Part shown: piece after piece, positions 21,859 to 51,549 of the stretch
Layout: each line of letters opens with the position of its first letter
Position numbering within the stretch: the first letter of the stretch is position 1
Source: Azoarcus sp.
GTDB taxonomy: Bacteria; Pseudomonadota; Gammaproteobacteria; Burkholderiales; Rhodocyclaceae
Direction: 5' to 3'
NCBI GenBank assembly: GCA_031265765.1
Contig: JAISCE010000067.1
Span: 1 to 57,867 of the forward strand
DNA: 57,867 bases
Translations under genes and position numbers: made by a program
Notes under the pieces: model-generated
What the model was told of the DNA's origin: nothing
The model's input: only the letters and a program-made list of their open reading frames with translations
The model's database searches: none

Positions 21859-23001
21859 TCAAAAATCCAGGCGCCATCCCAATGCGCCGGCCCAACTGTC
21901 CCAATTCACACCGTTGAGACGGGTTTTCGTCGATTCGCCGGAGGAGAGAAAAGTGCGATCCGTCCCATTCCTCAACCGCTGCTCGCTGCGATCCAGCGTG
22001 AACGTGATGGCGCTTTGCGCGGACAAGCGCCAGAGCGCGCCGATCTCTGCCTGCCAGCCGCTGCTGTTGCCGTGATGCCTGAAACTGACCGGGTGCTCGA
22101 AATTGCTGCGCAGATTCCAGTCGGCCTCGGCGCGGTAGCGGTACCACTGCTGTTTCAGCCCGAACCGCAAATCGAACCGCTTTCCGAGATGCGCATCGAG
22201 CCGCAAACCCAGCCAGGGGCCGTGCCAGCGCGGGCGGTAGTGCGAATCCAGCCCATGGATCGGGCCGAGCGGAACGCCAAAGCCGAAATCGCTGACGACC
22301 TGCCGGCCATGGCGGGAGCGCAAATCCTGCTCCTGGTACGCATAGCCCGCCATCGGCGTCACGCCGACGCGACTGTGCGGCATGATGCGCCAGCCCAGTC
22401 CGAGCGCGAAGCGGCTCTCCGTGCTGCCATGCGGTTTGGAATAGGAGCGCGAAAATTCGCCCTGCCTGCCGTTATACATATAATCGGAGTCCCGCACCTT
22501 GCCGGAGAATCCGGAGGCATAAGCCAGTTCCCCGGCGATGGTGAAGCCGTTGGCGGCCATCCAGTCGCCGTTCAGGCGAAATTCCGCCATCTCCGTTTCC
22601 CATTCCAGTTCGGAGAGGACATTGGGCGCGCCGCCGGAACCGGCGATATTGAAATCGAGCCGGTCGCGGCGATAGCCGAGGGCGGCTGTCCAGGCGTGGC
22701 GCAGGTCTTTGGGATTTGCGCCCTCCTCCGCGTCCGCGGCGCTCTGGGCCGGCGCATCCGGCGCATCCCGGCGCTCGCCGTTTTCCGGAAACATCGTCAT
22801 GAAAAACGTGGCGGGCGCACCGGACGGCGCGTCCGTCGCGGGCCGCGCGGTCGTTGTGGATTGCGTAACCATTGTGGGCGGCGTCTTCGCGCCGAGGCGC
22901 GCGCCATCGTACACCCATATGCCGGCATCATCCAGCGGATGCGCCTGGAGCGGCGCGGAAAATATCGAAACCAGCGCCAGCAGCGCGCATTGTTTTTTCA
23001 T
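21859..23001 (-). CDS. Omptin-like outer-membrane beta-barrel protein
   Basis: A 380-residue secreted protein with a signal peptide (residues 1-20, ending LQA), a Pro/Ala-rich stretch (about 40-100) and a C-terminal beta-barrel of alternating strands ending in Phe, the outer-membrane C-terminal signature. The barrel loosely follows the omptin protease layout: LSELEW, then RDSDYMY (Asp171 and Asp173, like OmpT Asp83/Asp85). In the region where OmpT has its Asp-x-His pair this protein seems to have Asp294-x-Asn296. It is the last gene of the secretin operon, 5 bp after the secretin. Omptin homology is my reading and needs structure-based checking. Confidence 0.55.
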   Translation of the reverse strand: MKKQCALLALVSIFSAPLQAHPLDDAGIWVYDGARLGAKTPPTMVTQSTTTARPATDAPSGAPATFFMTMFPENGERRDAPDAPAQSAADAEEGANPKDLRHAWTAALGYRRDRLDFNIAGSGGAPNVLSELEWETEMAEFRLNGDWMAANGFTIAGELAYASGFSGKVRDSDYMYNGRQGEFSRSYSKPHGSTESRFALGLGWRIMPHSRVGVTPMAGYAYQEQDLRSRHGRQVVSDFGFGVPLGPIHGLDSHYRPRWHGPWLGLRLDAHLGKRFDLRFGLKQQWYRYRAEADWNLRSNFEHPVSFRHHGNSSGWQAEIGALWRLSAQSAITFTLDRSEQRLRNGTDRTFLSSGESTKTRLNGVNWDSWAGALGWRLDF

Positions 23002-23006
23002 GGTTG

Positions 23007-25283
23007 TTACTCCGAAGACTGTTCATAAGGCTGACGGGAGATCGCATACACCCATGTCCATGACGCTTCGCTTCCCACGGGATCGAGTTGCTGGCGCTCC
23101 GCCACGATGGCCGCCCAACGGCCCGCGATCAGACCCGGATCGAAGGTCGCAGCCTGCGCACCCATGTTGATGACGCGCAAGGCCGTCACATAAAAGCCGT
23201 CCATCCGCCAGGCATGCGACACCTGGCATTCTACATCTTTGTCCAGACGCCGCCATGCTCTCTGGAAGGGAACCGGCGCCAGGCCGCTGGCGGGGTGGGC
23301 GGCGTCCGGGTCGACGCGGCGCACGGCATCGGCGGCGGCGCGGGCAATGGCGGTGAATCGTTCGGCATCCGCGTCCGGCGCGCCGGAAGCCGTTTTTCCG
23401 GGCGGCTGCTCGACGGACGCAAGACCGGTCTTCGGATTGAACATGGACTCGCGCCGCCAGAAATCGGGAGTGTGCTGTTCCTTGGCGCCCGCCGTATCCA
23501 TGCCGCGCATGGCGTCTTCCTTGCTGCGCGCCAATGCGTCGCTTTCCTCGGGAGTTTCCAGGACGTGCGGCGTAATCAGCAGCACGAGTTGCTTGCGCGC
23601 GTTCCCGCGCACGGTTTTCTTGAACAGATGCCCCAGCACGGGGATGTCGCCGAGCAGCGGGACTTTTTCTTCCGCATCGGTCACGCGCTGGGTAATCATG
23701 CCGCCCACCGCCACGGTGAGGCCGTCCCGCGCATGCGCCGTGACTTGCATGTTGGCGGTATTGACCGTATCGATGGGGAACTGCTGCACCCCGCCATTGG
23801 CCAATGGCAACGGTATCGTGGCCCCGCCGCTGTTGATGCGGGAATTGTCCTGGTCGATGGTCAGCGTCACCGAACGGTCGGCATTGATGCGCGGCAGGAT
23901 CACCAGGGTCTGCCCGACGTTTCTCTGCTCGGTTTCCACGGTGACGGTGGTATTGGTCGCGCCCGTGGTGCCGGTGACACTGTCGGAACTCGCGCCCGTG
24001 ATCAACACCTGCTCGTCGCCGATGAAAAGCCGCGCGGGCTGGTTGTTGGCGGCCACGAGCATCGGCGTGGCCAGCACATTGACGCGGTTTTCGCCCTCCA
24101 GCAATTGCAGGCGCAGGCGCAGATTGTCGTTGACCAGTTGCCAGATGGCCGTCGAAGCCTCGGCGGCGAAGTTGCCGAGCGAAGCCGCGGCGCGGGGAAA
24201 CTCGCCCTGGACGCCGCCGCTCGCGCTGCCGCCCGCGCCCAGTTCCCGCGGGCCGCGCGACGTAGAATCGCCGCTCGCGCCGATGTCGAACACCGAACGG
24301 AAATCCTTGCCCAGTTCCACCTCCAGGATGCGCATCTCCAGCAAGACCTGGCGCGGCGGAAGATCCATGTCGACGACGAATTTGTCGATCTCTTTCAGGG
24401 CCGCCTCGTCGCTCGTGCGCACCAGCAGCATGTTGTGCAACTTGTTGTAGGTGACGTTGATCGCCGGCCCCTTGTTCGTGGCGGCGGCCATCACCGCGGA
24501 AGCGTCGAGGCTTTCCGCCTGGCTGCTGTCGACATCGAGCGCCGCCTCCAGCCCGGTCTGCGAAACAGCGGAGATTTCCTTGCGCGCATCGACCTGCGCC
24601 TGCCCCGCGCGGGAAGAACCGCCGCTGCGGCGGCTGTACACACCCTCGGAGCTGATGCTGCGGCCAAAAGAGCCGCCGCCATAATTACGATTGTTACCAT
24701 AACTGCTGCTACCGTAACCGCTGCCGCCATAACCGCTCCGGTTGCGGCTCGACCCCCCCATGTCGACCGGCGGCATTTCCTCAACCGGTTCGACGAGGTT
24801 GACCCGGTTGCCGAACAAGGCCGAGATGGCATTGGCGACACTGACGACGTTGTGATGGCGCAGCACATAATTGCGGGTGATTTCGTCGCGAGTGATGGCA
24901 ATGTCCTGCTGATATTCCCGCGCGTTCATCAGGATATACGCCTTGGTCTGGGCATCGAACCGGTACCAGACCCCGGCGGCGCGGCAAAGGCTCCTCACCA
25001 TACCGTCCACACTGACATCGCGCAGATACAGAGACACCCTCTTTTTCGCTACGCTGGACGTCACCACGATACTGGTCTTGCCGATCTGGGAAATGAACTG
25101 CGCCGCTTCGTCGAGCGTGATCTGTCGAAAATAAACATCGCCCGGCGAACCGTTCGCATCGAGCTTCGCGGGCGCGACAGGCCGCGCCGACGCCGGGAAC
25201 GCTATGATCAGCGCGAAGGCAAGCGCCACAGCGCAGGAAACGCTCGGGGACGGAGGCAGGCAAAACCTGTTTTTCATATTCAT
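23007..25283 (-). CDS. Secretin of a type IV pilus / type II secretion-like system
   Basis: A 758-residue outer-membrane channel subunit. Signal peptide about 1-33; N0-type domain (about 50-130) with ITLDEAAQFISQIGKTS; an N1 domain interrupted by a Gly/Ser/Asn/Tyr-rich stretch (about 175-225); then the secretin core with the conserved EEKVPLLGDIPVLGHLFK motif near residue 560. After the core there is an extra C-terminal region of about 160 residues. The MSHA-pilus secretin MshL is the nearest familiar layout, but that is usually shorter. The start overlaps the preceding stop by ATGA; an ATG 6 bases in (25277) is equally possible. Confidence 0.92.
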   Translation of the reverse strand: MNMKNRFCLPPSPSVSCAVALAFALIIAFPASARPVAPAKLDANGSPGDVYFRQITLDEAAQFISQIGKTSIVVTSSVAKKRVSLYLRDVSVDGMVRSLCRAAGVWYRFDAQTKAYILMNAREYQQDIAITRDEITRNYVLRHHNVVSVANAISALFGNRVNLVEPVEEMPPVDMGGSSRNRSGYGGSGYGSSSYGNNRNYGGGSFGRSISSEGVYSRRSGGSSRAGQAQVDARKEISAVSQTGLEAALDVDSSQAESLDASAVMAAATNKGPAINVTYNKLHNMLLVRTSDEAALKEIDKFVVDMDLPPRQVLLEMRILEVELGKDFRSVFDIGASGDSTSRGPRELGAGGSASGGVQGEFPRAAASLGNFAAEASTAIWQLVNDNLRLRLQLLEGENRVNVLATPMLVAANNQPARLFIGDEQVLITGASSDSVTGTTGATNTTVTVETEQRNVGQTLVILPRINADRSVTLTIDQDNSRINSGGATIPLPLANGGVQQFPIDTVNTANMQVTAHARDGLTVAVGGMITQRVTDAEEKVPLLGDIPVLGHLFKKTVRGNARKQLVLLITPHVLETPEESDALARSKEDAMRGMDTAGAKEQHTPDFWRRESMFNPKTGLASVEQPPGKTASGAPDADAERFTAIARAAADAVRRVDPDAAHPASGLAPVPFQRAWRRLDKDVECQVSHAWRMDGFYVTALRVINMGAQAATFDPGLIAGRWAAIVAERQQLDPVGSEASWTWVYAISRQPYEQSSE

Positions 25284-25834
25284 CGTACCAGCATCTTGTA
25301 TTGAGGCGCTCCCGCGCCGTGCAGTAACACGCCGTCCGCTTCCACCGTCACCGTATAGCGGATGTTGTTCACATCGATTTCATCGCCATCCCTGACGATA
25401 ATGACATTTTTCCCGGATTGAATCTTGGCGATGCCGCCTTGCGGCCCCCGCACCACCGCGCGCAAGCGCAGGATTTGGCTGAGCGCCATACCCCCCTGCT
25501 GGCTGAAACGGGACGACCGCCCGCTATCCTCGCGCAGCCGGGGCGACACCTCGAAAGGGTCGCGCTCGGGTGCATCGGACGCGCCCGGCGCGATTGAAGT
25601 TCTCGGCGGCGCGATGGTCTGCGGCGCAAAACGCGCACCGCCTTCCGATCCCGTATCCACCTTCCCTTTCTCGCCGCCGATACGTTTGTTCACCTCGCCG
25701 TTATGCTGGTCTATCGCCGCCACATCGCGCTGAATGGCTGGCGACATCCCGGCCGGCAAGCGGGTCTGCGCCGCAACCAGCGCCGGCAGGACGAAAGAAA
25801 GGACGAGAAACGTGCTTATGCGCATGAAGTTCAT
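25280..25834 (-). CDS. PilP/GspC-like periplasmic alignment protein
   Basis: A 184-residue protein with an N-terminal signal or anchor (about 4-22), a disordered Pro/Gly-rich middle and a small C-terminal beta domain (about 120-184) starting LRLRAVVRGPQGGIAKI. That domain resembles the homology region of GspC and PilP, which link the inner-membrane platform to the secretin. Its position between the GspF-type platform gene and the secretin gene, with ATGA overlaps on both sides, supports this. Sequence similarity is weak, so the family name is tentative. Confidence 0.65.
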   Translation of the reverse strand: MNFMRISTFLVLSFVLPALVAAQTRLPAGMSPAIQRDVAAIDQHNGEVNKRIGGEKGKVDTGSEGGARFAPQTIAPPRTSIAPGASDAPERDPFEVSPRLREDSGRSSRFSQQGGMALSQILRLRAVVRGPQGGIAKIQSGKNVIIVRDGDEIDVNNIRYTVTVEADGVLLHGAGAPQYKMLVR

Positions 25835-27060
25835 GCTCCAGTGGAAATCGTCATCATGGCCTTGAAAAAAGCAAAATAGACAAAGCCCACCACGCCGCCG
25901 ACCGTCACGATGAGCACGGGTTCGATCATGGCGGCCAGCAATTTCACGCGGGCATCCAGCAATTTCTGGTAATGCTCGCCCAGCGATTCCATAACCATAT
26001 CCAGTTGCCCGCTTTTCTCGCCAACTGCGGCCATGTGTTGTACGAGTTGGGGCAGGGATGGCCCCTCGAACGCGACGGTGAGGCTCTTGCCCGCCAGCAC
26101 ATCGTCCGCCGCCTGCGAGAGCGCATCGGTAAACGTGGCGTTTCCGGACACCTGCGCACAAATACGCAAGGACTCCAATACCGTGAGGCGGCTCTTGACA
26201 AGTACGCCGAAAATCCACATCACCTGCGCCATCGCGGCCACGACGAGCGTGACGCCCAAAACCGGGAATACAAGCACAGCGCGGTCGATGACCCGCCGCG
26301 CGGGCGGTGCCCGGCGCAGCAACGGAATGCCGACGGCAAACGCCACGGCGATCACGCCAATCGTCCCGCCCCATTTGCCCAGCCAGTCGGAAACGTCCAG
26401 CATGGTCTGCGCTTCCCAAGGCAACGCCTTGCCGCGCCCGTTCAGAAAAAGCGCGAAGCGCGGTATAACAGTAATGACTAAAAAGCTGACTACACCAATG
26501 GCGGAAAGCAGCACGAAGCCCGGATAAACCAGCGCCGTGGCCAACTGCCGCCTCACCTCGCCGCGCCGCTCGATCAGCGCCGCAAGCCGCTCGAACACCA
26601 ATCCCAACTCACCGGAAGCCTCGCCCGCCTCGATCAGCTTCAGGGCCAGACGGTCGAAAAGCTCCTTCTCGCCGCTGCACGCCACCGAAAAACTGCTGCC
26701 GCGCTGGATGCCGACGGCCACGCGGCCAAGGCTGTCGGCGAGCCGCGCCTTCGCGGTGAGTCGAGCCGTAGCGGCCAGCGCCTCAAGCACCGTATGCCCG
26801 GCTTTCAGCATCAATTGCATCTGCCGGAAAAAAAGCACCCGGTCGACATCGCTGATGGAACGGAGGCGTGAAATACCATATACATAACCATTCAGTATTG
26901 CAATCACGCCCCGGCCGCTGGCAACGCCTTCCGCAATGCTCAGGATTTTCAACCCCCGCTCCCGCAACTGGCGGCGCGCGGCGGCCTCGTCCGGCGCATC
27001 CATCTGGCCGCGCGCTTCCGCTCCCTGAGCCGTGAGACAAAGATAAGTAAAACCCGTCAT
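25831..27060 (-). CDS. GspF/PilC-type inner-membrane platform protein
   Basis: A 409-residue protein with the two GspF domains (about 70-195 and 275-395) and three membrane helices (about 170-190, 220-240, 375-395). The LIEAGEASGELG and VGEKSGQLD motifs of the two repeats are clear. It starts MTGFTYLC like family members. It is the first gene of the gspF, pilP-like, secretin, omptin-like operon and is preceded by a 185-base leader with a Fur-like box over the predicted promoter. The platform works with the GspE- and PilT-like ATPases encoded 9-10 kb away. Confidence 0.94.
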   Translation of the reverse strand: MTGFTYLCLTAQGAEARGQMDAPDEAAARRQLRERGLKILSIAEGVASGRGVIAILNGYVYGISRLRSISDVDRVLFFRQMQLMLKAGHTVLEALAATARLTAKARLADSLGRVAVGIQRGSSFSVACSGEKELFDRLALKLIEAGEASGELGLVFERLAALIERRGEVRRQLATALVYPGFVLLSAIGVVSFLVITVIPRFALFLNGRGKALPWEAQTMLDVSDWLGKWGGTIGVIAVAFAVGIPLLRRAPPARRVIDRAVLVFPVLGVTLVVAAMAQVMWIFGVLVKSRLTVLESLRICAQVSGNATFTDALSQAADDVLAGKSLTVAFEGPSLPQLVQHMAAVGEKSGQLDMVMESLGEHYQKLLDARVKLLAAMIEPVLIVTVGGVVGFVYFAFFKAMMTISTGA

Positions 27061-27180: not shown

Positions 27181-27247
27181 TCCATGAACACCTACCTCGC
27201 CGCCCCGGCCATGAACGGCAAGGACGGCGCTCGCCCACGCAAAACAA

Positions 27248-27280
27248 TGATAATTATTACCATTAATGTTCATCTGTCAA
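27248..27280 (-). promoter_or_regulatory. Fur-like box over a sigma-70-type promoter of the gspF operon
   Basis: Minus-strand -35 TTGACA (27275-27280), 16-bp spacer and -10 AATAAT (27253-27258). TGATAATTATTACCA (27248-27262 on the plus strand) matches the 7-1-7 Fur motif at 13 of 14 specified bases, and the surrounding 19 bases match the classical Fur consensus at about 15 positions. The box covers the -10, the usual place for repression by iron-loaded Fur. Confidence 0.7.
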
Positions 27281-27511: not shown

Positions 27512-29635
27512 TCATTGCATTTGACCTTCATGGACAAATGATTTGCTGGGGGAAACGCGAAATGATGCTGTAGTACTTTCATTTGGCTTGAATTGAACAG
27601 ATGCCAGAACCGGCAATGCCAGTACATCAAGGATGAGCTTTGCCACATGATAAGCACCTGTTATGCTAAGATGATCGTCATCATAGTAAAATAACTGCCC
27701 ATCCCGATAACCCGCGCATTTAGTCCGATCACAAAACAGTGGTTCAGGGTCGACGATGGTCAGGTCGCCATGTCGCGCGTTAACCTTGGCAATCAGTTCC
27801 CGATAATGCTGCATCCGCTCTCGATATACAGGGTAGGGTACGGTGCACTCTGTCTTGGATCGCGTAAGGGTCAGCGGGCGAGATGATAGGCATTCCTGCG
27901 GTCGTACACCAAGCTCCGGTACTTGCAACAAATAAGCAACCTTGAGGCCGTGCGCTTTCAGCCTCAGGAAAGAATTTTCTATTCCATGCTCAAAAATTTG
28001 TTCTGGAGGCCGATTGCTACCATCGCGCGTGGCGGCAATCGCATCAGTCCAGTTGAAACCTGGTTCGGTAAGGCCAAAGCCTTTCCCTGTAATGGATAAT
28101 GGTCCTCTCGTCACCATGACGACATGCGTGATATGCGGTATCTGTTCCAGAAGATCGAATATGGCGTCGATTACTTTGGTGCAAGCCTCTCTCTTCTTGG
28201 TGGCTTTACTGGTGGTAAAACCTTCCAGAGGTAAACAGCCGTTTTTCCCAACGACTAATGTACTGTAACCGTGTTCTGATGCGAATTTTGAAAATCCGGC
28301 GAATAGATAACCTGCATGTGAATCACCAATTATGGCTATCATAGGGCTAGTCTTGCCTTCCAAGCGACAATAGCTGACCAAATCCATTACATCTTTAGGG
28401 AGCATGTCAAGGCATTGGCTATCTCGCATGAAAGGAAGTGTCAAATCCGCCATGATTTCAGGTGAAAATCGGGACGATTGCGTAAACTGCGGCGACAAAT
28501 CGAATTGCGCAATGCTGCATGTAGCCAGAAACAGAACCGCCATTGAAGCTGCGAGCCCGGAGAGCACAGCTTTTCCGCTCTTTTTCAGGGGCATGGTGTG
28601 CATATTGCGTATCGGCAACTCGACGAAGCGCCAAGTCAGCGCCGCCAGCAAAAATGAAAGCAACGCACCCACACAGATGAAGACCGGCGACGGCTTGCCG
28701 GATTCCATGATGCGGATGAACGAAAAAACCGGCCAATGCCACAAATAGAGCGGGTAGCTGATGAAGCCGACCCACACCAGGGGTTTCAGGGCAAGCAGGC
28801 GATTTGCCGGGCACGCCGCATGTGAAGCGAGGAGAAGCAGCGTTCCAGCGACGGGAATGAGGGTCATCGGGCCGGGGTAGGTCATTTTCCAGTCATGAGG
28901 ATAAAGCCCCAGGAGCACAGCGGCGAACCCGAGCAGCGACAAAGGCGCGGCCAACTGGTGTACACGACTTTTCCCCCCGCGTTTTACGCCAAAGGCATGA
29001 AAGTGGGCGAGCGCCGCGCCCAGGAGCAATTCCCAGACGCGGGTAAAAGGATGAAAATAGATTTCCGTTCCTTCCTTTCCCAGAGCAAGCGTGACAAGCC
29101 AGGAACTTGTCAGCAAGAGGGACAGCAAGCCGACGATGGCTCTTTGCTTGCCCAGTCGCCACGCCAGTACCAAAGAAAAAGGCCACGCTAGGTAAAATTG
29201 TTCTTCGACGGAAAGCGACCACAGATGCATCAGGGGTTTGGTATAGGAGGCCGCGTCGAAATATCCGCTCTCATTCATGAGCCGGAAGTTTTCCAGGAAA
29301 GCCATCGACCAGTAAGCGTGACGGGCAAGCTGTGCGTATTCGTCCGAGAACAGGGCGAAAGCGCCAAAGATCAACACAGCAAGAAGAACGGTCATCAGCG
29401 CCGGAAAAAGCCGCCGGACGCGACGGGCGTAGAAGCTGGCGAAACGGAAGGAGTTCTCCTGCAATTCGCGGAAAATGATTTGCGAGATCAGATAACCGGA
29501 AATGACGAAGAAAATATCTACGCCCAGGAACCCGCCCGGCAACAAGGACGGCGCGGCATGGTTGATGACGACCGCCAGCACGGCGACGGCGCGCAAGCCG
29601 TCGATGTCGGGACGGTAACGGATCGCGGGCTTCAT
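27512..29635 (-). CDS. OafA/YrhL-type acyltransferase with C-terminal SGNH domain
   Basis: A 707-residue membrane enzyme. Residues 1-380 form an acyltransferase-3 domain with about ten membrane helices and the catalytic His in DGLRAVAVLAVVINH. A periplasmic SGNH hydrolase-like domain follows (about 430-680) with GDSHAGYL as block I and DDDHLSITGA as the Asp-x-x-His block. Such fusions O-acetylate or otherwise acylate surface glycans. It is the last gene of the five-gene sugar operon, overlapping the previous gene by ATGA, so a glycan built on the lipid-linked pentose is the likely substrate. Confidence 0.92.
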   Translation of the reverse strand: MKPAIRYRPDIDGLRAVAVLAVVINHAAPSLLPGGFLGVDIFFVISGYLISQIIFRELQENSFRFASFYARRVRRLFPALMTVLLAVLIFGAFALFSDEYAQLARHAYWSMAFLENFRLMNESGYFDAASYTKPLMHLWSLSVEEQFYLAWPFSLVLAWRLGKQRAIVGLLSLLLTSSWLVTLALGKEGTEIYFHPFTRVWELLLGAALAHFHAFGVKRGGKSRVHQLAAPLSLLGFAAVLLGLYPHDWKMTYPGPMTLIPVAGTLLLLASHAACPANRLLALKPLVWVGFISYPLYLWHWPVFSFIRIMESGKPSPVFICVGALLSFLLAALTWRFVELPIRNMHTMPLKKSGKAVLSGLAASMAVLFLATCSIAQFDLSPQFTQSSRFSPEIMADLTLPFMRDSQCLDMLPKDVMDLVSYCRLEGKTSPMIAIIGDSHAGYLFAGFSKFASEHGYSTLVVGKNGCLPLEGFTTSKATKKREACTKVIDAIFDLLEQIPHITHVVMVTRGPLSITGKGFGLTEPGFNWTDAIAATRDGSNRPPEQIFEHGIENSFLRLKAHGLKVAYLLQVPELGVRPQECLSSRPLTLTRSKTECTVPYPVYRERMQHYRELIAKVNARHGDLTIVDPEPLFCDRTKCAGYRDGQLFYYDDDHLSITGAYHVAKLILDVLALPVLASVQFKPNESTTASFRVSPSKSFVHEGQMQ

Positions 29636-34116: not shown

Positions 34117-34279
34117 CGCCACGGCCTTATCGCCGCGGCCTGGCGGAATCGCCTCGCCGGACGGACTTTTTCCCATGGGCGGCGGGCGGAAAAAATGCCG
34201 ACTGCTCCGGTTTCATATTCTTTCTTCGCGCTCGAACGTAATGTGGTCGCGACAGGATAACAATCGTGATCGCAAATTG

Positions 34280-34299
34280 CAATCATTATCATTAGCATG
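34280..34299 (-). promoter_or_regulatory. Fur-like box upstream of the UbiA-DprE operon
   Basis: On the minus strand GCTAATGATAATGATTGCA matches the 19-base Fur consensus at 14 positions, with two tandem AATGAT hexamers. It lies about 165 bases before the chosen start of the HAD-UbiA gene and 140 bases downstream of the RelE-like gene. No clear -35/-10 pair was seen next to it. The rest of the 34117-34438 gap holds no gene I can support. Confidence 0.55.
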
Positions 34300-34438
34300 A
34301 ACTATCCTCTCCACGAACCCATGCTTTTCAGTAACGACGCGAAATTGGGTGCCATTACGAAGTTTATATTACCTTGGCATAAGCGGGTTTCAAGCCGCCC
34401 CTGCTATTCCACACCGAGTTGTTCGCAAAAAACGAGAG

Positions 34439-37954: not shown

Positions 37955-37982
37955 GGCGGGCGGGGCGGCGGCGTCTTCGTTT

Positions 37983-41908: not shown

Positions 41909-41924
41909 ATCGTGCGATGGAAGC

Positions 41925-43455: not shown

Positions 43456-44400
43456 TCAAGTATTGCGGATGTTATCCACTTCGCCCAATTCTTCGTCCTT
43501 GGTATCGCCAGCGCCGTCGATGATGGCATGGAAACTGGCCTTGCCGTTACCGTTGTTGGTTCCACTCACATTCCCCACGTTGAACAACACAATGAAACGG
43601 TTGTACTGGTGGGACTCCACGTGACGATAAGTCGGCGTATTGGAAAGCGCGCCAATAGTGGCCGGATCGAACAGGCTGGAATCGGGGCCAATGCCGAAAG
43701 CAATGAGCGTGTCGCTCGCCTTCGCATTCACACGCTCCGGCGCTCCACTCCAAATCAAAACATTCGAATCCACTTCCAACGTATCGGACTTACCCCCGCA
43801 GCCATTGCCCTTGTCAGAACGATAAAGGTTGCCAGGCACTACATCGTTACTCCTGTCCCGTACCGCTGCAATAACCGCGGCGCGGTTATTAGCACCGCAA
43901 TTGACACTACTAGTGTCCAGCACACGATACTGAGTAATACCAGCCTCCTCCAGTGATTTTTGGGCAGCCGAATTAAGACTCCATACTGACAAAGCGTCAT
44001 GCAGCCCTTCATCGAAGAGCGACCTATCCGACGAGTCGAGAACAATCCCCCTGACGTCGCCGGGCAGAAGCAGAGAATCAAAGTTGTCAGGGTATTTACC
44101 CTTGTTCAGCACCATGTAGGTCTGGATGCCCTTGGAGAGTTCATCCATCATCGCCACGTGCGCCGCCGCCGCGCCCTTGCGGTCGGTATCTTGCAGCATG
44201 ATGGTGGCGGTGCCGGCGATCGCCGCGAGGATGGCGACCACGACCAGCAGTTCCAGCAGCGTGAAACCGCCTTGTTTACCGCGGATTTTCTCGAACCGGC
44301 GGCGCAGGCCGCGCCCCTTGACGGCGCCGGCATCGACGGCTTGCAGCCTGGACTTGAGTTCGGCCTTGGGCATGGACAGCAACTTGGACAACATAGACAT
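43456..44400 (-). CDS. Prepilin with a 45-residue leader, probable major subunit
   Basis: A 314-residue prepilin. The processing site is GG-FTLLELLVVVAILAAIAGTA with the cut after Gly45, so the leader is 45 residues and strongly basic near the site (GLRRRFEKIRGKQGG), longer than the usual 6-30. The mature protein (about 269 residues) has a four-cysteine set, a Ser/Thr-rich surface and a C-terminal Thr. It is first of the prepilin genes and is followed by hairpins, as expected for the most expressed subunit. ATG codons at 44394 and 44373 would still leave leaders of 43 and 36 residues. Confidence 0.85.
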   Translation of the reverse strand: MSMLSKLLSMPKAELKSRLQAVDAGAVKGRGLRRRFEKIRGKQGGFTLLELLVVVAILAAIAGTATIMLQDTDRKGAAAAHVAMMDELSKGIQTYMVLNKGKYPDNFDSLLLPGDVRGIVLDSSDRSLFDEGLHDALSVWSLNSAAQKSLEEAGITQYRVLDTSSVNCGANNRAAVIAAVRDRSNDVVPGNLYRSDKGNGCGGKSDTLEVDSNVLIWSGAPERVNAKASDTLIAFGIGPDSSLFDPATIGALSNTPTYRHVESHQYNRFIVLFNVGNVSGTNNGNGKASFHAIIDGAGDTKDEELGEVDNIRNT

Positions 44401-44459: not shown

Positions 44460-44804
44460 TTACGACATATCCGGCTCTTCGCCGGCAGGTTGTGCCGCGA
44501 CCCCACGTCGCCAGCCCGTTTCTTCATTCGCCGGATCGCTCCCGGCGGGAAAACGCTTTTGTCCGCCGCCGCCGCCCGCCCGCTTTTCGGCGGCGGGCAA
44601 CGGGTAATCCACTACAAACCTGTATTGCTTGCCGCAATGCAGGATGACTTCTTTCTGCCCCCGCCGCAGGATACGAAGCTCCACCCGGATTTCCGCATAC
44701 CCATCATGGGCAAAAGCTTCCCGGTAAAGCTCTTCAAGCTTGGACAATACCTGGTCTTTGGACTGGGCGGGCTTCGCGCCCGCCGCCTTCTCCAAGTTGT
44801 ACAT
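44460..44804 (-). CDS. Small protein of unknown function, first gene of the pilus operon
   Basis: A 114-residue soluble protein. The first 75 residues look folded (EELYREAFAHDGYAEIRVEL, then ILRRGQKEVILHCGKQY RFVVDYP), with a mix of helix and strands; the last 40 are Gly/Pro-rich. No family recognised and no membrane segment. It is the first gene after the Fur-like promoter and lies 59 bp before the major prepilin gene. The ATG at 44804 was used; the adjacent GTG at 44807 is an alternative. It could be a regulator of the operon, but nothing in it shows that. Confidence 0.65.
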   Translation of the reverse strand: MYNLEKAAGAKPAQSKDQVLSKLEELYREAFAHDGYAEIRVELRILRRGQKEVILHCGKQYRFVVDYPLPAAEKRAGGGGGQKRFPAGSDPANEETGWRRGVAAQPAGEEPDMS

Positions 44805-44841
44805 CACAAGGGGTTTACCTCGCTATCATGCATCTCTTGCG

Positions 44842-44871
44842 AACGATAATAGTTATTATTCGCCATGTCAA
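44842..44871 (-). promoter_or_regulatory. Fur-like box and promoter of the pilus operon
   Basis: Minus-strand -35 TTGACA (44866-44871) is followed by TATTAT (44846-44851, short 14-bp spacer) or TATCGT (44843-44848, 17 bp). The plus-strand sequence GCGAACGATAATAGTTATTATTCGC region is nearly palindromic and its minus strand matches the Fur consensus at 14 of 19 positions. It lies about 40 bases before the first gene. Confidence 0.6.
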
Positions 44872-45012: not shown

Positions 45013-45040
45013 TTGACATGCAAACGATAATCATTATTAT
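45013..45040 (+). promoter_or_regulatory. Fur-like box and promoter of the glycosyltransferase operon
   Basis: Plus-strand -35 TTGACA (45013-45018), 16-bp spacer and -10 TATTAT (45035-45040). CGATAATCATTATTA (45025-45039) lies in the spacer and -10 and matches the 7-1-7 Fur motif at 12 of 14 specified bases, or the 19-base consensus at 15. It would drive the three plus-strand genes from 45266. Confidence 0.65.
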
Positions 45041-45078
45041 ACGCAGGCTGCCTTCCTTCAAGAGAATTTTCAGCGTCC

Positions 45079-45265: not shown

Positions 45266-47086
45266 ATGTCCAAACCCTCGGGCCTCATGTCCAGACTCCC
45301 GCAAATCCGTTTTCCGTCCGGATCGTGGGCAGCCATGGATTTCCAGGTTGCCTTGCCGGAATCTGTACAAATCCGCTTCCCGTCTGGCAAGGCATTCTCT
45401 TTCGACATGCGGAGCGCCCTGTCCGGCCTGGGCTGCCTCCTTGTCTTCGCCCTTTTCATCCTGACTTTTGTCAAGACTGCATGGGTAACGGAAGACGCCT
45501 TCATCACGTTCCGCGTCGTCGACAATGCATTGAATGGCCATGGTTTAAGCTGGAATCCCAATGAACGCGTGCAAGCCTACACGCATCCGCTTTGGTTCTT
45601 TCTGCTGCTCGCCGGTTCGGCGATCAATAATCAACCCTATTACATCAGCCTGTTTTTAAGCTATATCTGCATTGTTACAACACTTTGGCTTGCACTGAAA
45701 ATCCTGCGCCCCTGCGGCGCTTTGTCTTTCCTTTTTCTTTTCGCCCTCCTCTTCTCCAAGGCGTTTATAGACTGGATGACTTCCGGGCTGGAAAATCCCC
45801 TTGGCTATCTGCTTATCACCCTGTTTTTATGGATCTGGTTCCGGAAAGAAGGCAATCGGCATCATCTCTTTCTTCTGACATTCACTGCGGGTGCAATGTA
45901 CCTGAACCGCCCGGACGCCATTGTATTGATTTCCCCGGCGCTTCTCTATGCTTTCCTGACGGATGAACATCCCTGGCGCAAGAAAATCGGCATCGTACTC
46001 ATGGGGGGAATGGGCGTTTTTGCCTGGACGCTGTTTTCCCTCGTTTATTACGGTACGCCCGTGCCCAACACCGCATTGGCGAAAACGGCTACCGATATTC
46101 CGGCTCTGCAATACCTTGCGCAAGCCGCCCTGACATATGCGCATATCGCGCGCACGGACACTGTCAGCCTTATCCTGTTGCTTGCTGGCTGCCTCATCGG
46201 TTTCCTGCAATCTCCCCGGCGATGGAAAGCACTCTCGGCGGGGCTTCCCGTCTGGGGCATCTATCTTTGCATGATCGGCGGCGATTACATGGCCGGACGC
46301 TTTTTCAGCATTCCCGTTCTCTTTTCCGCGCTTCTGTGCGCCCGCGCACTCAGGAATTACCCATTCCGGAAACTGGGCGCCGCCGTGGTCGCGGCCATGC
46401 TGATTGCATTGCCGCAATTACAGTTCACACTTTTTTCAACCCTTGATTACCGCATAGAAGGCCGCATCTACGATATTACGGATTCGCGTGGCGCTTACTA
46501 CAGGGCAACCGGCCTGCTTCGCATTCTTCAAAACACTCCGGGGGGGGGCGGTATCTCCCACAGATGGTTCCTCACGGGCAAGGCGCTCAAGGATGCAGCG
46601 CCACGGAAGGGAATTTATACCGGTTGCGTCATGGGAATGTTGCCTTACGGGGCCGGCCCGGATTTTTATTGGATAGACCCTCTGGCATTGTCCAATGCCT
46701 TTCTGGCCAGGCTGCCGGCACGTTCAGGGTCTCGCGTCGGCCATTACGAGCGCGCCCTTCCCCCAGGCTATCTGGAATCCGTCATGACTGAACAAAACCA
46801 TATTGCCGACCCGGCGCTCGCCCGGCTTTACAGCGATGTGCTTTTGGCAAGCACCGGAAAGATTTTTCGCCGGGAGCGTTTTGCCGCTATTTTTCGCCTG
46901 AATACGGGTTTTCACAAAAATGCCGCGGCAAATTACGACCGGGAAGCCATTGGTCTTCCGGGTCTTTCTGTCGCCACAAAAGAAACGCACAGTTGTCACG
47001 GCAGAAAAGCCCGGGGATATCATGTTGATGAATCGCTGCGGACTTTATCCCTGTCTCGACTCCTCGGGTCTTCCTATCCGAATTAA
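45266..47086 (+). CDS. AftB/TfpW-like GT-C glycosyltransferase (putative arabinofuranosyltransferase)
   Basis: A 606-residue membrane enzyme with about ten helices and a periplasmic C-terminal part. After the first helix it reads VTEDAFITFRVVDNALNGHG and ERVQAYTHPLW: the E-D pair in the first external loop, followed by the N..ERV...T.PLW pattern, is the layout of mycobacterial AftB and of Pseudomonas TfpW, which use decaprenylphosphoryl-D-arabinose. With the HAD-UbiA, DprE1 and DprE2-like genes nearby it is the expected transferase. The first 48 residues contain two QIRFPSG copies and may be leader DNA; a start at 45410 is possible. Confidence 0.78.
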   Translation: MSKPSGLMSRLPQIRFPSGSWAAMDFQVALPESVQIRFPSGKAFSFDMRSALSGLGCLLVFALFILTFVKTAWVTEDAFITFRVVDNALNGHGLSWNPNERVQAYTHPLWFFLLLAGSAINNQPYYISLFLSYICIVTTLWLALKILRPCGALSFLFLFALLFSKAFIDWMTSGLENPLGYLLITLFLWIWFRKEGNRHHLFLLTFTAGAMYLNRPDAIVLISPALLYAFLTDEHPWRKKIGIVLMGGMGVFAWTLFSLVYYGTPVPNTALAKTATDIPALQYLAQAALTYAHIARTDTVSLILLLAGCLIGFLQSPRRWKALSAGLPVWGIYLCMIGGDYMAGRFFSIPVLFSALLCARALRNYPFRKLGAAVVAAMLIALPQLQFTLFSTLDYRIEGRIYDITDSRGAYYRATGLLRILQNTPGGGGISHRWFLTGKALKDAAPRKGIYTGCVMGMLPYGAGPDFYWIDPLALSNAFLARLPARSGSRVGHYERALPPGYLESVMTEQNHIADPALARLYSDVLLASTGKIFRRERFAAIFRLNTGFHKNAAANYDREAIGLPGLSVATKETHSCHGRKARGYHVDESLRTLSLSRLLGSSYPN

Positions 47087-47128: not shown

Positions 47129-49117
47129 ATGCAAAACACTTTGAAAATCCGCCTCTTTCCCGTCCTGGCCGCGCTGGCCGCATTGCTTCTATACGTGCGC
47201 ACACTGGGCTACAACTACCTTTGGGATGACATCGTTATTTTCAGGGGAGTTGTCTCCACGGCATTGAGTACGTTCGATCTATCCGGGCTCCTCCAGCCCT
47301 TCCTGGAAGAAGCAGATTATTTTCGTCCGCTGGTCGTGCTTTCTTTCTGGCTGGACGCCGTTCTTGCCGGTAATCGTCCGGGATTTTCGCACGCGGTGAA
47401 CCTCGCCCTGTTCCTCGTGAATATCCTGCTTGTCTTTTCCATCTGCCGCCATCTGGCGAAAACGCTGGAGAGTCCGCGCGCATCCTGGCGCGCTTTCTGG
47501 GCCGCTCTCATCTACGCGATACACCCCGTCATGGTGGAATCGACCGTATGGATTTCCGGACGCTTCGACGTGCTGGCAACCACCTGCATCCTGGGTGCAA
47601 CGCGGGTTTATTTGAGCCGCCGCCCCGGCCATTGGCGCCTCATCGGGTTCGGGCTTCTATCTTTTCTCGCCCTGCTCTCCAAGGAAACCGGCATCATGCT
47701 GCTGCCGGGCATTTTCTGCCTGTGGCTGGCCGTCGAAACCACGCGCCACGAGACGCCGGTTTCCTATGCGAATTTTCGCCAATGTCTCGCCGTCAACAAC
47801 AAAGCCCTGAATACCCTCCTGGGCATTGCCGTACTTTATGCCGCCCTGCGCTTCACGTTTTTGCCTGTAAGCATGGATATGACTTCGACTGCCTCGGCAA
47901 AATATGGAAGTTTTTTCCTGGCCATGGAAAGCGTGAAGTTCTATTTTCATCAGGCGCTTTTCCCCTTTGCCACGATGTTTCCGCGACATCCGGTCGAATC
48001 CGTAGTATCGGCCTGGAGCCTGTTGGACATCCTCGGCAATCTCGCAACGCTTGCGGCCCTGGTGGCCGTGATCTTCCATGCCATGCGCCGCCGATCCGCC
48101 GCTGCCTGGGTGTTTCTGGCCGGGATGTGCTACCTCGCGCCGGCGCTGTATATTTCTATATCCCTCAACGAAAATCTGGGACATGAGCGGTTTTTGACCA
48201 CGCCCCTGGCCTTCTGGTCAATGGCTGCCGTCTTGCTGAGATGGGAACGCATTTTTGCCACATCTCCCATGCAAAAATTCGCCGCCGCCATGAATGTACT
48301 TTCCCCGCGCCTTATTGCACAGGCCGTGGCAGCCGTGTGGCTTTCCATGCTCGCCTGGACGACGCACACGACCATTCCACTCTGGCAAGATAACCTCATT
48401 CTATGGAGCTGGAGCTGGAAGCAATTCCCGGATGACAAATACAGCCGCTATAGCTATTTCCATGCCATGTCTTCTGTCGATTCGACAACGGCAAAAAAAG
48501 CCGTGGATCACTTGATGCAGGAGACCGGCTTCCTCTATGCCGATGAAGCAATACTTTACGCGGGTATTCTTATGAAAGAAGGGAATATAAAAAGTCTCGA
48601 TTATTTGGACATGGTTCGCCAGCGGACAGGAAATAGCCTGAACATTCACGAGGACCCCAATGCAGAATACTTGCGTATCAAACTCACGCCACTTGCGTCG
48701 GGCCTGATTTCCAGCTATTACTATCTTTCCGCGCAGGCATATTTCCGTTTCAGGAAAAATCCGGCAACAGCGCAGCAACTGAACGAAACGGCTTTTTGGT
48801 ACAAAAAAAGAAAGCCTAAGCTGGATCGAAATGATATGGTATATTATAATCTGCCAAGGGCCGCTTATTTATATGGAATGGGGCTTTTCGGACCTGCCGA
48901 TAAACTGCGCGATGAACTGGTGACAGTTTATGGAATAAAGAAGGAAGCTGTCCATGGAGTTCTGCGCCACCTTCTGGAAGACTATTGCGATTGGAAAACA
49001 AATGAAAACGAACCGGCAGACCGGCCATTGCTGCCTGTATGCAGCCAGCTTGACCAATTTTTCCCGAAACCGGATAATGGCAATGAGATGAACAAAGAAG
49101 GCGGAAACGACACATAG
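47129..49117 (+). CDS. TMTC/PMT-like GT-C glycosyltransferase
   Basis: A 662-residue membrane protein with about eleven helices and a C-terminal helical domain. It has the first-loop Asp pair (YNYLWDDIVIF), DYFRPL, and the HPVMVESTVWISGRFDVLA motif typical of TMTC and related O-mannosyltransferases (HP...E.V..ISGR.D.LA). Such enzymes use dolichyl- or polyprenyl-phosphate sugars and glycosylate proteins or lipids on the outer face of the membrane. It follows the AftB-like gene by 42 bp and precedes the sulfatase-fold gene, so it is part of the same glycan operon. The sugar donor and acceptor are unknown. Confidence 0.82.
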   Translation: MQNTLKIRLFPVLAALAALLLYVRTLGYNYLWDDIVIFRGVVSTALSTFDLSGLLQPFLEEADYFRPLVVLSFWLDAVLAGNRPGFSHAVNLALFLVNILLVFSICRHLAKTLESPRASWRAFWAALIYAIHPVMVESTVWISGRFDVLATTCILGATRVYLSRRPGHWRLIGFGLLSFLALLSKETGIMLLPGIFCLWLAVETTRHETPVSYANFRQCLAVNNKALNTLLGIAVLYAALRFTFLPVSMDMTSTASAKYGSFFLAMESVKFYFHQALFPFATMFPRHPVESVVSAWSLLDILGNLATLAALVAVIFHAMRRRSAAAWVFLAGMCYLAPALYISISLNENLGHERFLTTPLAFWSMAAVLLRWERIFATSPMQKFAAAMNVLSPRLIAQAVAAVWLSMLAWTTHTTIPLWQDNLILWSWSWKQFPDDKYSRYSYFHAMSSVDSTTAKKAVDHLMQETGFLYADEAILYAGILMKEGNIKSLDYLDMVRQRTGNSLNIHEDPNAEYLRIKLTPLASGLISSYYYLSAQAYFRFRKNPATAQQLNETAFWYKKRKPKLDRNDMVYYNLPRAAYLYGMGLFGPADKLRDELVTVYGIKKEAVHGVLRHLLEDYCDWKTNENEPADRPLLPVCSQLDQFFPKPDNGNEMNKEGGNDT

Positions 49118-49170
49118 CCGGAGTTCCTCCAGTATCCTTGATCTATATCTCTCGCTTGAGGCTGACCAAT

Positions 49171-51549
49171 ATGTTTTCGGAACACTTTCACATTACATTT
49201 AAAATTATCCAGAAATATCTGGGTAAACAACTTTCTCTGTTCTCCATATTTTTACTATTTTATTATTCAAAAATATTTGAAGGCATCCCTGAGTTGATTA
49301 TCCGTGCTATCTGGAATACAAATAAAAACAATGACCAGATGCAAAACCTTTTCCAAAACCTTGAGGAATTCGGTTTCAACACCGGGCTTGCATTGGAATT
49401 TCTCGGGTTCATTGCCATAAACCTGCTTTTGCTGTTTATATGTTTTTTGCTATTATCATGGGCGGGCAGGCAGGTAACGCATATCTTTGGTTTCACTGAA
49501 ATCGCAGGCCGATTCCTTGGAATTCTTTTTGGATGTATAACTCTTTTTGCATACGATCATGCGGTTTTCAAAATAAATCATCAGAATTCCGTATTTTTTA
49601 TCGGTGCCATGTCCTTCCTCGCATTTTTAACACTGCGCGTATGGAAACTGGCAGTCTACTCCCGAAAGCTTCATAAAATAAAAAGAATTTCGATGGGCCT
49701 GCTCCTGTCATGCATTTGCCTACCATCCTTCTTCAGCCTCTCGATTCCAGAAATGTTGCTTTATTTCCGTTGGTATTCGCTTTCTCCTGTTATTTTATTT
49801 CTAGGAACTCTGTTTTTCCTTGTATACAGAATCCCCGAGCGCACAGATCGTATCTCCGGCATGAGATATTTCAAGGTATTACTGCTATTATGCCTTGCAC
49901 TTATATTTTCTCCGCGTGCATTGAAAATGAACTGCGCTCAAATTTTAATGTTTGGCGCACCATTGATTTCTGCATGGGCGTGCTTTTCAGCACTTATCAA
50001 AATTCGACATCGTTTTCAATGGCGGTTCTTAGTTCCGATTGCCGTGCTTTGTCTTTTTGCTTTCATGCCCTTGGACAACTATTCCCAGAATGACAAGGTT
50101 CGGCATGGGAAAAATATCATCATCGTGGGCGTGGATGACCTATCGCCCGACATGTTGATGCGCGCCAATAAACTTGACCTTGCGCCGACCCTGAAAAATT
50201 TGGCGGAGAATGGGATACAGTATTCCCGTGCCTATACCCCGCTAGGACGAACATCCGCTGCCTGGGCCAGCATTTTAAGCGGCGACTCACCACAGGAGCA
50301 CGGTTCTTATTTCAATCTCCGCGATCTGAAAAATATCAAAAAAGAGCATTTTGTTACTTTCAAACTTCGGGAACTGGGCTATAAAACTATATGGGCACTG
50401 GATGAACGGCGTTTCAATTACATGGATGAAACATTTGGTTTCGACAAGGTCGTTGGCCCCAAAACGGGCCTCATGGAATTTTTCTTGAAAGATCTGACAC
50501 GCTTTCCGGTGAACAATATTCTTCTACAATTTTCTTTTTCCAAGAAAATATTTCCTTATGCCTATGAAAATGCTGGTTATGGAACCACTTACAATCCAAA
50601 TGGGTTTGTGCGTTCCATTCTTTCTTCGGTACAGGATTCGGATAAACCCATATTCCTGGCGGTTCATTTTGAATCGGCACACTATCCATGGGAAACCCGT
50701 CCCGTGCAAAAGTTGGATGACGATGTGAAAGTCCCTAATCCGATAATGCGTCGTGCTCTGGAAACTGTTGCGGTGGTTGATCGTCAGGTCCGGAATCTGT
50801 TGCAAGGACTTGAACGCCAAGGCGCATTGGATGATGCGTTAGTAATTTTCCTGTCGGATCACGGTGAAGGATTTCTAGAGACAGAAAACAAGGTGAAAAT
50901 GGAAAACGTCGGGTTCGTCAATATTAGGGGATATGGTCATGGGAATGAGGTGCTCAGCGACCGCGCAAATCATGCTGTACTGTCCATATTACATTTCAAG
51001 AATGGAAAAATAGTCAGCCTCCCGGAAACTCGCGATGAACAGGTTTCTTTGTTGGACATAAAAAATACAATAGAAAATTATCTTGAAAATGGCGATATTC
51101 ATGTCTACCCCAAAAATGCATGCATAATCGTTGAAACAGGTAAAAAAGTTGGAGGATTTGGCGCATTGGCGGCAAAGGGCAATAATAACCTGAAAATCAT
51201 TGAAACAAGCCTTCCTTTCTATCGGCTCAATCCGGAAGGTTTTGTATATTTGCGTGAAGATAAAATAAAAGAGTTGATTGCAAGCAAAGATATCGGAGTG
51301 CGTTGCAAGGATAGAATAACTTATTTCTCGCCAGATATTGGCTATCTTGTCGCACACGCCCTGAATGCCGAAGGTATTCCAGATCAACTTATTCCACCTC
51401 CTGAAGAAGATATCGCCAGAATATCCCGCTACATGACCGGCTATGGCCTTGATCTGCCACAGTCCACTCTGGCGATACAAAGTCCGGAATTGAAACAGCG
51501 AATGTTGATACGTGATGCGAAACAGGTAGACATCATGGATAACCGATGA
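49171..51549 (+). CDS. Membrane-anchored sulfatase/phosphoethanolamine-transferase-fold enzyme
   Basis: A 792-residue protein: five or more N-terminal helices (about 1-290) and a C-terminal alkaline-phosphatase-superfamily domain. Metal ligands are visible in VGVDDLSPDM, LSDHGEG and GYGHGNEV, and the nucleophile region is PLGRTSAAWASILSG (Thr or Ser). This is the layout of LptA/EptA phosphoethanolamine or phosphoglycerol transferases and sulfatases. The start ATG at 49171 has a GAGG site; an upstream TTG at 49138 is less likely. The gene is clearly more AT-rich than its neighbours, suggesting transfer. It may add a phospho-group to the glycan. Confidence 0.8.
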   Translation: MFSEHFHITFKIIQKYLGKQLSLFSIFLLFYYSKIFEGIPELIIRAIWNTNKNNDQMQNLFQNLEEFGFNTGLALEFLGFIAINLLLLFICFLLLSWAGRQVTHIFGFTEIAGRFLGILFGCITLFAYDHAVFKINHQNSVFFIGAMSFLAFLTLRVWKLAVYSRKLHKIKRISMGLLLSCICLPSFFSLSIPEMLLYFRWYSLSPVILFLGTLFFLVYRIPERTDRISGMRYFKVLLLLCLALIFSPRALKMNCAQILMFGAPLISAWACFSALIKIRHRFQWRFLVPIAVLCLFAFMPLDNYSQNDKVRHGKNIIIVGVDDLSPDMLMRANKLDLAPTLKNLAENGIQYSRAYTPLGRTSAAWASILSGDSPQEHGSYFNLRDLKNIKKEHFVTFKLRELGYKTIWALDERRFNYMDETFGFDKVVGPKTGLMEFFLKDLTRFPVNNILLQFSFSKKIFPYAYENAGYGTTYNPNGFVRSILSSVQDSDKPIFLAVHFESAHYPWETRPVQKLDDDVKVPNPIMRRALETVAVVDRQVRNLLQGLERQGALDDALVIFLSDHGEGFLETENKVKMENVGFVNIRGYGHGNEVLSDRANHAVLSILHFKNGKIVSLPETRDEQVSLLDIKNTIENYLENGDIHVYPKNACIIVETGKKVGGFGALAAKGNNNLKIIETSLPFYRLNPEGFVYLREDKIKELIASKDIGVRCKDRITYFSPDIGYLVAHALNAEGIPDQLIPPPEEDIARISRYMTGYGLDLPQSTLAIQSPELKQRMLIRDAKQVDIMDNR

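Follow-up and report, generated by a model that had tools for sequence, protein, structure and literature searches.

A type IV filament gene cluster with Fur-like boxes and an FTR1 permease gene in Azoarcus and its relatives: a candidate outer arm of iron uptake

Introduction

Type IV filaments are sorted by the job they do, namely motility, adhesion, secretion or DNA uptake. To our knowledge, the reports that relate pilins to iron concern the major pilins of ordinary pili, and we know of no agreed mechanism. Here we describe a gene cluster of Azoarcus sp. (assembly GCA_031265765.1, contig JAISCE010000067.1, positions 1 to 57,867 of the forward strand, the whole of which is called the window) in which genes for a type IV filament machine, heme proteins and an FTR1 iron permease stand together with Fur-like boxes. 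Gene order, co-occurrence and these boxes tie a family of such filaments to one FTR1 subfamily and to heme redox proteins, and on balance the sequence comparisons favor the view that the cluster encodes a dedicated, iron-repressed type IV filament that, with a heme redox chain and FTR1, would serve as the outer arm of iron uptake.

The closest described cases come from cyanobacteria and Legionella. The type IV pili of Synechocystis PCC 6803 take part in iron acquisition (PMC4144903); a second source reports that growth on iron oxides requires the major pilin and is also impaired in a pilT mutant, and that the pili have been proposed to reduce, adsorb or bind iron (PMC13170364). That pilin is the organism's major pilin, whereas the filament of the window has two ATPases of separate clades, Fur-type boxes, and FTR1 and cytochrome genes within its cluster. 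In Legionella, iron acquisition is likewise promoted by a type IV pilin, PilA2, but its effect is reported to be independent of PilT and PilD, and pilA2 is reported not to rise in low iron (PMC13170364); in the window, by contrast, Fur repression is predicted for an entire machine, one that is linked to FTR1. Other bacteria have type IV pilus genes that Fur represses and that are raised in low iron, with no linked iron permease mentioned in the passage on them (PMC13170364). Uptake by P19 and FTR1 (FetMP/FtrABCD; PMC6083913, PMC11966278) has in common with our system the FTR1 permease, P19 in some clusters and a Fur box at the locus, but the passages on it describe no filament machine (PMC6083913), and no P19 homologue was found in the window. 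The work on Synechocystis, Legionella and Fur-repressed pili makes an iron-related pilus plausible, and literature searches, mostly without subscription papers, showed among the matches listed no report of a dedicated Fur-boxed cluster of filament and FTR1 genes.

Results

The window shares prepilins, an assembly ATPase, a platform protein and a secretin with type IVa pili, the mannose-sensitive hemagglutinin (MSHA) pilus and the type II secretion system (T2SS), and it has a PilT-type ATPase, as type IVa pili do. The genes of the machine are the following:

44460..44807, minus strand, orf115, small conserved first gene of the pilus operon (30 invariant columns in six sequences)
43456..44400, minus strand, pp1, large prepilin, probably the major pilin (Pfam N_methyl; C-terminal motif DGAGDTKDEELGE)
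42456..43307, minus strand, pp2, prepilin (Pfam N_methyl)
41925..42425, minus strand, orf166, small protein conserved in the cluster (export signal likely by eye; OB-like fold predicted)
40652..41935, minus strand, pp3, prepilin (Pfam N_methyl just below the cut-off)
38677..40626, minus strand, PilM/PilN-position protein (no Pfam or NCBIfam match)
37983..38717, minus strand, PilO-position protein (no Pfam match)
36797..38053, minus strand, PilT-type retraction ATPase (TIGR01420 382 bits, cut-off 319; own clade 99/99)
35190..36800, minus strand, assembly ATPase of GspE/PilB/MshE type (Pfam T2SSE and MshEN; own clade 99/99)
25831..27060, minus strand, GspF/PilC platform protein (Pfam T2SSF)
25280..25867, minus strand, PilP-position protein (no Pfam match)
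23007..25283, minus strand, secretin (Pfam Secretin)
21859..23001, minus strand, outer-membrane protein of the Pom family (Pfam PF17251, E 5e-47)

The prepilins (N_methyl), the ATPase (T2SSE) and the platform (T2SSF) place the machine in the type IV filament superfamily by their Pfam domains. An earlier note, made from the letters of the sequence, had described a complete assembly machine; its platform, secretin, two ATPases and three prepilins are backed by Pfam, whereas its names PilM, PilN, PilO and PilP are not, as no Pfam model matched the proteins in those positions and the names rest on size and position.

Four Fur-like boxes accompany these genes and two operons for sugar enzymes that are described below; they were scored against the 19-base Fur consensus, GATAATGATAATCATTATC:

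27243..27267, minus strand, Fur-like box 5' of the gene run from gspF to FTR1 (15/19 matches)
34272..34302, minus strand, Fur-like box 5' of the HAD-UbiA/DprE operon (14/19 matches)
44839..44863, minus strand, Fur-like box 5' of the orf115/prepilin/ATPase operon (14/19 matches)
45020..45044, plus strand, Fur-like box 5' of the GT-C operon (15/19 matches)

These boxes are real and above chance. Each contains overlapping consensus matches, and of the eight matches of at least 14/19 in the window seven lie within the four box promoters and one inside an open reading frame (6195), compared with six in total, or 0.3 per window, in 20 second-order Markov resamplings. Over the genome (2.58 Mb, 98 contigs), a Fur-type pattern that was picked after the boxes had been seen gave 22 matches with at most three mismatches against seven for the reversed pattern. 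Six matches had at most two mismatches. Three of the boxes account for five of them, the fourth, the UbiA box at 34280, having three mismatches, and the remaining match precedes a tonB gene on contig C79 and is the best site found outside the window. tonB is a classical Fur target. Three boxes overlap a promoter, namely TTGACA-N16-AATAAT at 27280-27253, TTGACA-N17-TATCGT at 44871-44843 and TTGACA-N16-TATTAT at 45013-45040 for the boxes at 27243-27267, 44839-44863 and 45020-45044, respectively, and the UbiA-operon box (34272-34302) has a weak promoter only. The genome has one Fur-family gene (158 bits), so that sites above background, promoter overlap at three of four boxes and a Fur gene are all present, as in a Fur regulon. 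The four boxes and the three overlaps with TTGACA promoters reported in the earlier note were thus confirmed, and the boxes remained above chance when scored by consensus and pattern against randomized sequence and the rest of the genome.

The boxes recur in relatives. Within 260 bp 5' of orf115, a score of at least 13/19 was reached at 19 of 29 pilus loci and in 23 of 536 control regions (odds ratio 42; P 5e-17, which is too small because the rows are related). This comparison omitted L061, L063 and L065, which duplicate the family genomes G061, G052 and G111, as well as G052, which has no orf115 on the stretch used, and kept all the other 39 loci; the window scored 15 in it because the stretch also contains the GT-C box. 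A Fur-like site precedes orf115 in all six family genomes with the system, with scores of 14 in the window, 17 in G061, 15 in G052, 13 in G111 and 12 in G106, and in G109 of 13 for the site picked by eye and 14 for a neighboring match. Over 16 clusters (the window, the five other family genomes and ten from named relatives) the best upstream score was at least 13 in 13, 12 in two and 11 in one. The nearest named relative, L055, has its UbiA-DprE genes 5' of orf115 instead of beside gspF, and boxes still precede HAD-UbiA (15/19), orf115 (13/19) and gspF (15/19); that the boxes stay with the same operons despite this rearrangement is strong evidence for shared control. The conservation in relatives carrying the locus, for which the earlier note had asked, was therefore found at 19 of the 29 pilus loci and for three boxes in L055, and Fur control of the cluster is strongly supported on comparative grounds.

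The box before gspF heads a second set of genes, which the earlier note had set apart from the machine:

20719..21777, minus strand, MoxR AAA ATPase (Pfam; conserved in the cluster; likely start downstream of the given start)
19715..20740, minus strand, DUF58 protein, boundaries approximate (Pfam 22.5 bits, just below the cut-off of 23.4; conserved)
19122..19727, minus strand, membrane protein, cytochrome-b-like by eye (no Pfam family; adjoins the multiheme cytochrome)
17476..19122, minus strand, c-type cytochrome with five CXXCH motifs
14814..17195, minus strand, TgpA-type transglutaminase-like membrane protein (Pfam; conserved in the cluster)
13620..14804, minus strand, FTR1 iron permease with two REGxE motifs (Pfam PF03239)

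The separation of these genes did not stand up, since they share strand and order in the relatives and form the conserved downstream half of the same cluster, so that the predicted regulon had been cut too short; membership of the genes from moxR to FTR1 in the pilus system is strongly supported by this comparison. In all ten clusters of named relatives that could be completed, as in G061, G109 and G106, the strand of the ATPases carries MoxR, DUF58, TgpA and FTR1 genes downstream of them, and these 13 clusters followed end to end span Beta- and Gammaproteobacteria and Nitrospinota. Between 13.0 and 28.0 kb the only promoter-like site on the minus strand is the one at the 27243-27267 box, which fits one long transcription unit reaching FTR1. 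The statement that no box precedes moxR holds, and it is consistent with a moxR position inside this predicted unit (27060-13620). A terminator scan gave 22 matches against 14.6 in shuffled sequence, too close to decide. The permease belongs to the FTR1 family by its PF03239 match (64 bits, cut-off 25) and its two REGxE motifs, and it falls below the NCBIfam cut-off for EfeU (90 bits against 255). BLAST found no P19 homologue in the window, the part of the genome that was searched, so that the window does not qualify as FetMP/FtrABCD.

Queried with the PilM/N-position protein, 6 of 150 family genomes in five genera carry the system, and the two other sampled members of the window's genus do not; at class level, pp1 was found at E 1e-30 in 2 of 369 genomes, the window's included, which shows the system to be rare. 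In the family genomes the order is orf115, pp1, pp2, orf166, pp3, the PilM/N-position, PilO-position, PilT-type and GspE-type genes, followed by GspF, the PilP-position gene, the secretin, often the outer-membrane protein, then MoxR, DUF58, cytochrome, TgpA and FTR1. Contig ends break the clusters of G111 and G052, where FTR1 lies on other contigs. The order is flexible. Oleiphilaceae and Amphritea have a secretin 5' of orf115, and their small prepilins have either changed place or were not found; the cytochrome follows FTR1 in the two Nitrospinota clusters.

Co-occurrence points the same way. The FTR1 subfamily (57-100% identity) occurs in all six pilus genomes, and the best hit in the other 144 reached 154 bits and 35%. 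The five-heme cytochrome (61-100% identity) was found in 4 of the 150 family genomes, all of them pilus carriers, and 14 further genomes gave only weak hits below 30 bits. A multiheme cytochrome or a di-heme protein is present in all ten named clusters, two of which are from Nitrospinota, and a heme protein in 15 of the 16 clusters; in G109 a di-heme protein replaces the multiheme cytochrome, and the cytochrome-b-like membrane protein has a homologue in 11 of 11 clusters with a multiheme cytochrome. Genes for P19 (PF10634) and a 4Fe-4S protein (Fer4_5) lie between pp1 and pp2 in G109 and G052 and, by BLAST, after FTR1 in a third cluster, from Rubrivivax. A TonB-dependent receptor gene lies inside the G106 cluster and FecCD upstream in G111.

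A scan with the orf115 alignment gave at least 38 loci, among the listed matches from Azoarcus, Zoogloeaceae, Accumulibacter, Dechloromonas, Pseudothauera, Rubrivivax, Amphritea, Oleiphilaceae, Chromatiaceae, Methylophaga, Nitrospina and Nitrospira. The carriers include the named strains Rubrivivax gelatinosus DSM 1709 and Pseudothauera rhizosphaerae CC-YHH848, so that it can be tested directly whether a pilus feeds iron to the cell. Isolate codes Gsp477 and Pcl387 turn up in listed papers on termite guts, and a termite-gut relative of Azoarcus is the probable source of the window. FTR1 was searched in 26 genomes behind orf115 loci, 24 of which have a pilus locus; in these 24 it was linked in ten, elsewhere or past a contig end in eight and not found in six.

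Apart from the core, the slots of the cluster vary between genomes, being filled by a TonB-dependent receptor, Pom, a di-heme protein or a multiheme cytochrome (L062, L074, L090+L095, L093, L094). A GGDEF-EAL gene (L049:17402-19546) directly follows FTR1 in G109, and a gene with a similar N-terminus, judged by eye, follows it in G106.

The machine stays below the equivalog cut-offs for T2SS (GspD 179 against 351 bits, GspE 454 against 630, GspF 261 against 424), for the type IVa pilus (PilB 430 against 676, PilQ 125 against 284) and for the MSHA secretin MshL (117 against 250), and pilT_fam alone is passed (382 against 319). A tree of 38 ATPases groups the clusters' 16 assembly ATPases in one clade and their 16 PilT-type ATPases in another, with support of 99/99 each, both separate from the six typed T2SSE rows elsewhere in the window's genome, whose own placement is unsure because their long branches meet. 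Those six, out of seven other T2SSE places in the genome, comprise one that passes PilB (817 bits, cut-off 676), one that narrowly passes GspE (631, cut-off 630), two that pass the PilT family and two that pass none. The ATPases of the pilus cluster are distinct from the genome's ordinary type IV pilus and T2SS ATPases.

The pp1 motif DGAGDTKDEELGE is present in 23 of 23 aligned rows and in 119 of 120 homologues among the matches listed. The aligned rows were taken from 30 pp1 frames found, leaving aside L056 and L066 (contig ends) and the divergent L070, L083, L086, L091 and L092. Checked after the alignment, L083, L086, L091 and L092 lack the motif, and neither a linked FTR1 nor a strong box is present at their loci; L070 has the variant DARGDFLDEEMAE, and L066 ends before the motif. 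A predicted model of pp1 (m0fa7d057a385) gave a weak structural match, to type IV pilins only.

The first gene of the operon, orf115, is faintly HemP-like by profile comparison: hhalign gave a weak match over 28 columns to an alignment of 18 HemP rows drawn from 20 loci (probability 27%, E 7e-4), and no Pfam model matched, PF10636 (HemP/HmuP) included. HemP itself was found in 92 of the 150 family genomes and not in the window's genome. Relatives of orf115 also occur outside pilus loci (L068, L069, L081, L082, L085, L088, L089), where, mostly judged by eye, they stand beside TonB-, chelatase- and FecCD-type genes and genes for proteins with a WGGWTRG-like motif; in L082 the neighbors are TonB-dependent receptor-like, Peripla_BP_2, FecCD and PNPOx_N genes. 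Possibly orf115 is an accessory of iron or heme uptake more widely.

The two remaining boxes precede genes that resemble a pathway for D-arabinofuranose:

32692..34176, minus strand, HAD phosphatase-UbiA fusion, predicted polyprenyl-phosphate phosphoribosyltransferase (Pfam; NF006088 661 bits, cut-off 351)
31379..32695, minus strand, DprE1-like FAD oxidase (solved DprE1, PDB 4aut, E 4e-64; NF053785 336 bits, below the cut-off of 500)
30645..31379, minus strand, DprE2-like short-chain reductase (SDR) (NF005489 319 bits, cut-off 267; NF053786 177, below the cut-off of 250)
29632..30650, minus strand, flippase-like membrane protein, LPG_synthase_TM (Pfam; TIGR00374 match; start approximate)
27512..29635, minus strand, acyltransferase-3/SGNH protein (best NCBIfam SucT 146 bits, cut-off 1275; start approximate)
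45266..47086, plus strand, GT-C-type glycosyltransferase (PMT_2 just below the cut-off; nearest NCBIfam arabinofuranosyltransferase 66 bits, cut-off 1050)
47129..49117, plus strand, second GT-C-like membrane protein, by eye (no Pfam or NCBIfam match; homologue in L055)
49138..51549, plus strand, sulfatase-fold membrane enzyme, possibly a phosphotransferase (Pfam Sulfatase)

Pathways with HAD-UbiA have been proposed to supply the D-arabinofuranose donor for pilin glycosylation in Pseudomonas (PMC11127046). The window has the three components of such pentofuranose systems, that is HAD-UbiA with DprE1/E2, a flippase candidate and GT-C enzymes, although the DprE models are below their cut-offs and the flippase and GT-C matches are general or weak; HAD-UbiA itself aligns with the solved decaprenyl-phosphate phosphoribosyltransferase PDB 8j8j at E 6e-27. 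Compared with the systems of that source, in the part available, the set of the window carries a Fur-type box, sits inside an iron and pilus cluster, has a TIGR00374 flippase candidate that is not named there and adds a SucT-like acyltransferase (PMC11127046). The GspE-type gene and gspF adjoin in the five family relatives but are separated by the UbiA-DprE operon in the window, and in the stretches of DNA fetched for the relatives the set was found in L055 only, with a single GT-C homologue in L064. From this distribution the D-arabinofuranose genes are probably a lineage-specific addition that decorates the pilin. The earlier view of filament and lipid-linked pentose pathway as one regulon thus stands as to the boxes, which are conserved, and gives way in that the sugar genes are not core; what the set would add is pilin decoration joined to iron stress in one lineage. 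Recent acquisition is suggested for the sulfatase-fold gene (49138-51549, plus strand), whose third-position GC is 0.44 where its surroundings have about 0.6-0.8.

Discussion

The conserved cluster with FTR1 and heme proteins, together with Fur-type boxes at its promoters, suggests that the pilus is made in iron shortage and helps iron to enter the cell, and we infer that the filament itself captures the iron. When iron is present, Fur would cover the region from -35 to -10 and block transcription; when it is short, the GspE-type ATPase, the platform and the prepilins would drive a pp1 filament through the secretin, and the PilT-type ATPase would retract it. Ferric iron may be bound by the acidic C terminus of pp1 (DGAGDTKDEELGE), then reduced, at the outer membrane or in the periplasm, with electrons arriving via the membrane cytochrome-like protein and the five-heme cytochrome (the di-heme protein in other clusters), and FTR1, joined in some relatives by P19 and the 4Fe-4S protein, would move it across the inner membrane. 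In the Azoarcus-type lineage the D-arabinofuranose pathway, under a like box, would decorate the pilin.

Several observations weigh against such an iron-uptake filament. Ten of the 29 pilus loci score below 13, namely L083, L086, L091 and L092 (Methylophaga/Methylomonas), L078, Thiohalocapsa L080, Amphritea L072, G106, the Azoarcus record L056 (11) and Dechloromonas L062 (11), whereas 3 of 10 orf115 loci without a pilus reach 13, as do 50 of 399 regions in a looser control with longer upstream regions that include cluster genes. FTR1 is not linked to the pilus locus in 14 of the 24 genomes, several owing to contig ends, and none was found in L055, L070, L077, L078, L080 and L091, which means that related filaments do not always come with it. 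With a FeoB-type match and four TonB-dependent receptors also in the genome, the cluster is not the only iron route there. It is a guess that the acidic motif is an iron site, and pp1 carries no heme motif; pilins bearing heme, as in nanowires, were considered and rejected, since the pp1, pp2 and pp3 frames have no CXXCH in the clusters where they were found. Lastly, the assembly ATPase, platform and secretin are nearest to T2SS models in NCBIfam, though below the cut-offs.

This last point is also what a T2SS-like machine would predict, one that under iron limitation exports an iron-scavenging or ferric-reducing protein, such as the multiheme or di-heme cytochrome, on behalf of FTR1, and the heme proteins within the same cluster would be at hand as cargo. 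T2SS is not known to have a PilT-type retraction ATPase. One is present in 16 of 16 clusters, as a single clade, the equivalog cut-offs are not reached and the genome has a T2SS-type GspE elsewhere, so we regard export as unlikely. We give somewhat less weight still to an attachment or twitching pilus for which iron shortage is a habitat cue, with FTR1 and the cytochromes as neighbors because they are common Fur targets: prepilins and a PilT-type ATPase are present, and Fur-repressed pilus genes are reported for some bacteria (PMC13170364), but shared regulation alone explains poorly why the same gene set extends through FTR1 in Pseudomonadota and Nitrospinota, and the exclusive co-occurrence of the FTR1 subfamily with the pilus is hard to get from it.

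That the filament takes up heme rather than ionic iron, with orf115 a HemP relative that also serves heme-type uptake operons without a pilus, would accord with the L082 neighborhood and the 28-column profile match, but the 27% probability of that match, the lack of a Pfam match, a conserved permease of the FTR1 family and P19, which belongs to a family for Fe2+ transport, make this improbable. It is most improbable of all that the boxes are functionless AT-rich promoter matches. Such a consensus is indeed met by chance in AT-rich DNA (119 matches of at least 14 in 20 random windows of 64% AT), but the window is 62% GC, and the boxes exceed both the Markov resamplings and the control regions and are kept in relatives.

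Beyond the iron-repressed filament as an arm of iron uptake, we would tentatively go further and suggest a separate, Fur-switched filament class whose retractile, ExxE-tipped pilins carry ferric iron through the secretin to a heme reductase chain and FTR1, an idea that we ourselves hold with some doubt. Competence pili bring DNA to ComEC, and by this likeness an iron-importing pilus, patchily distributed over at least two phyla, could possibly turn out to be a founding case, a prospect about which we are equally cautious.

Other features of the window

No RNA families or tRNAs were found in the window. The C-terminal stretch of the secretin resembles DUF3438/TIGR03749 of integrating conjugative elements (28 and 35 bits). 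On the plus strand, 5539-9149 holds two adjoining genes for AAA/STAND-like ATPases, the second with TPR/PPR-like repeats, possibly a defense or signaling pair.

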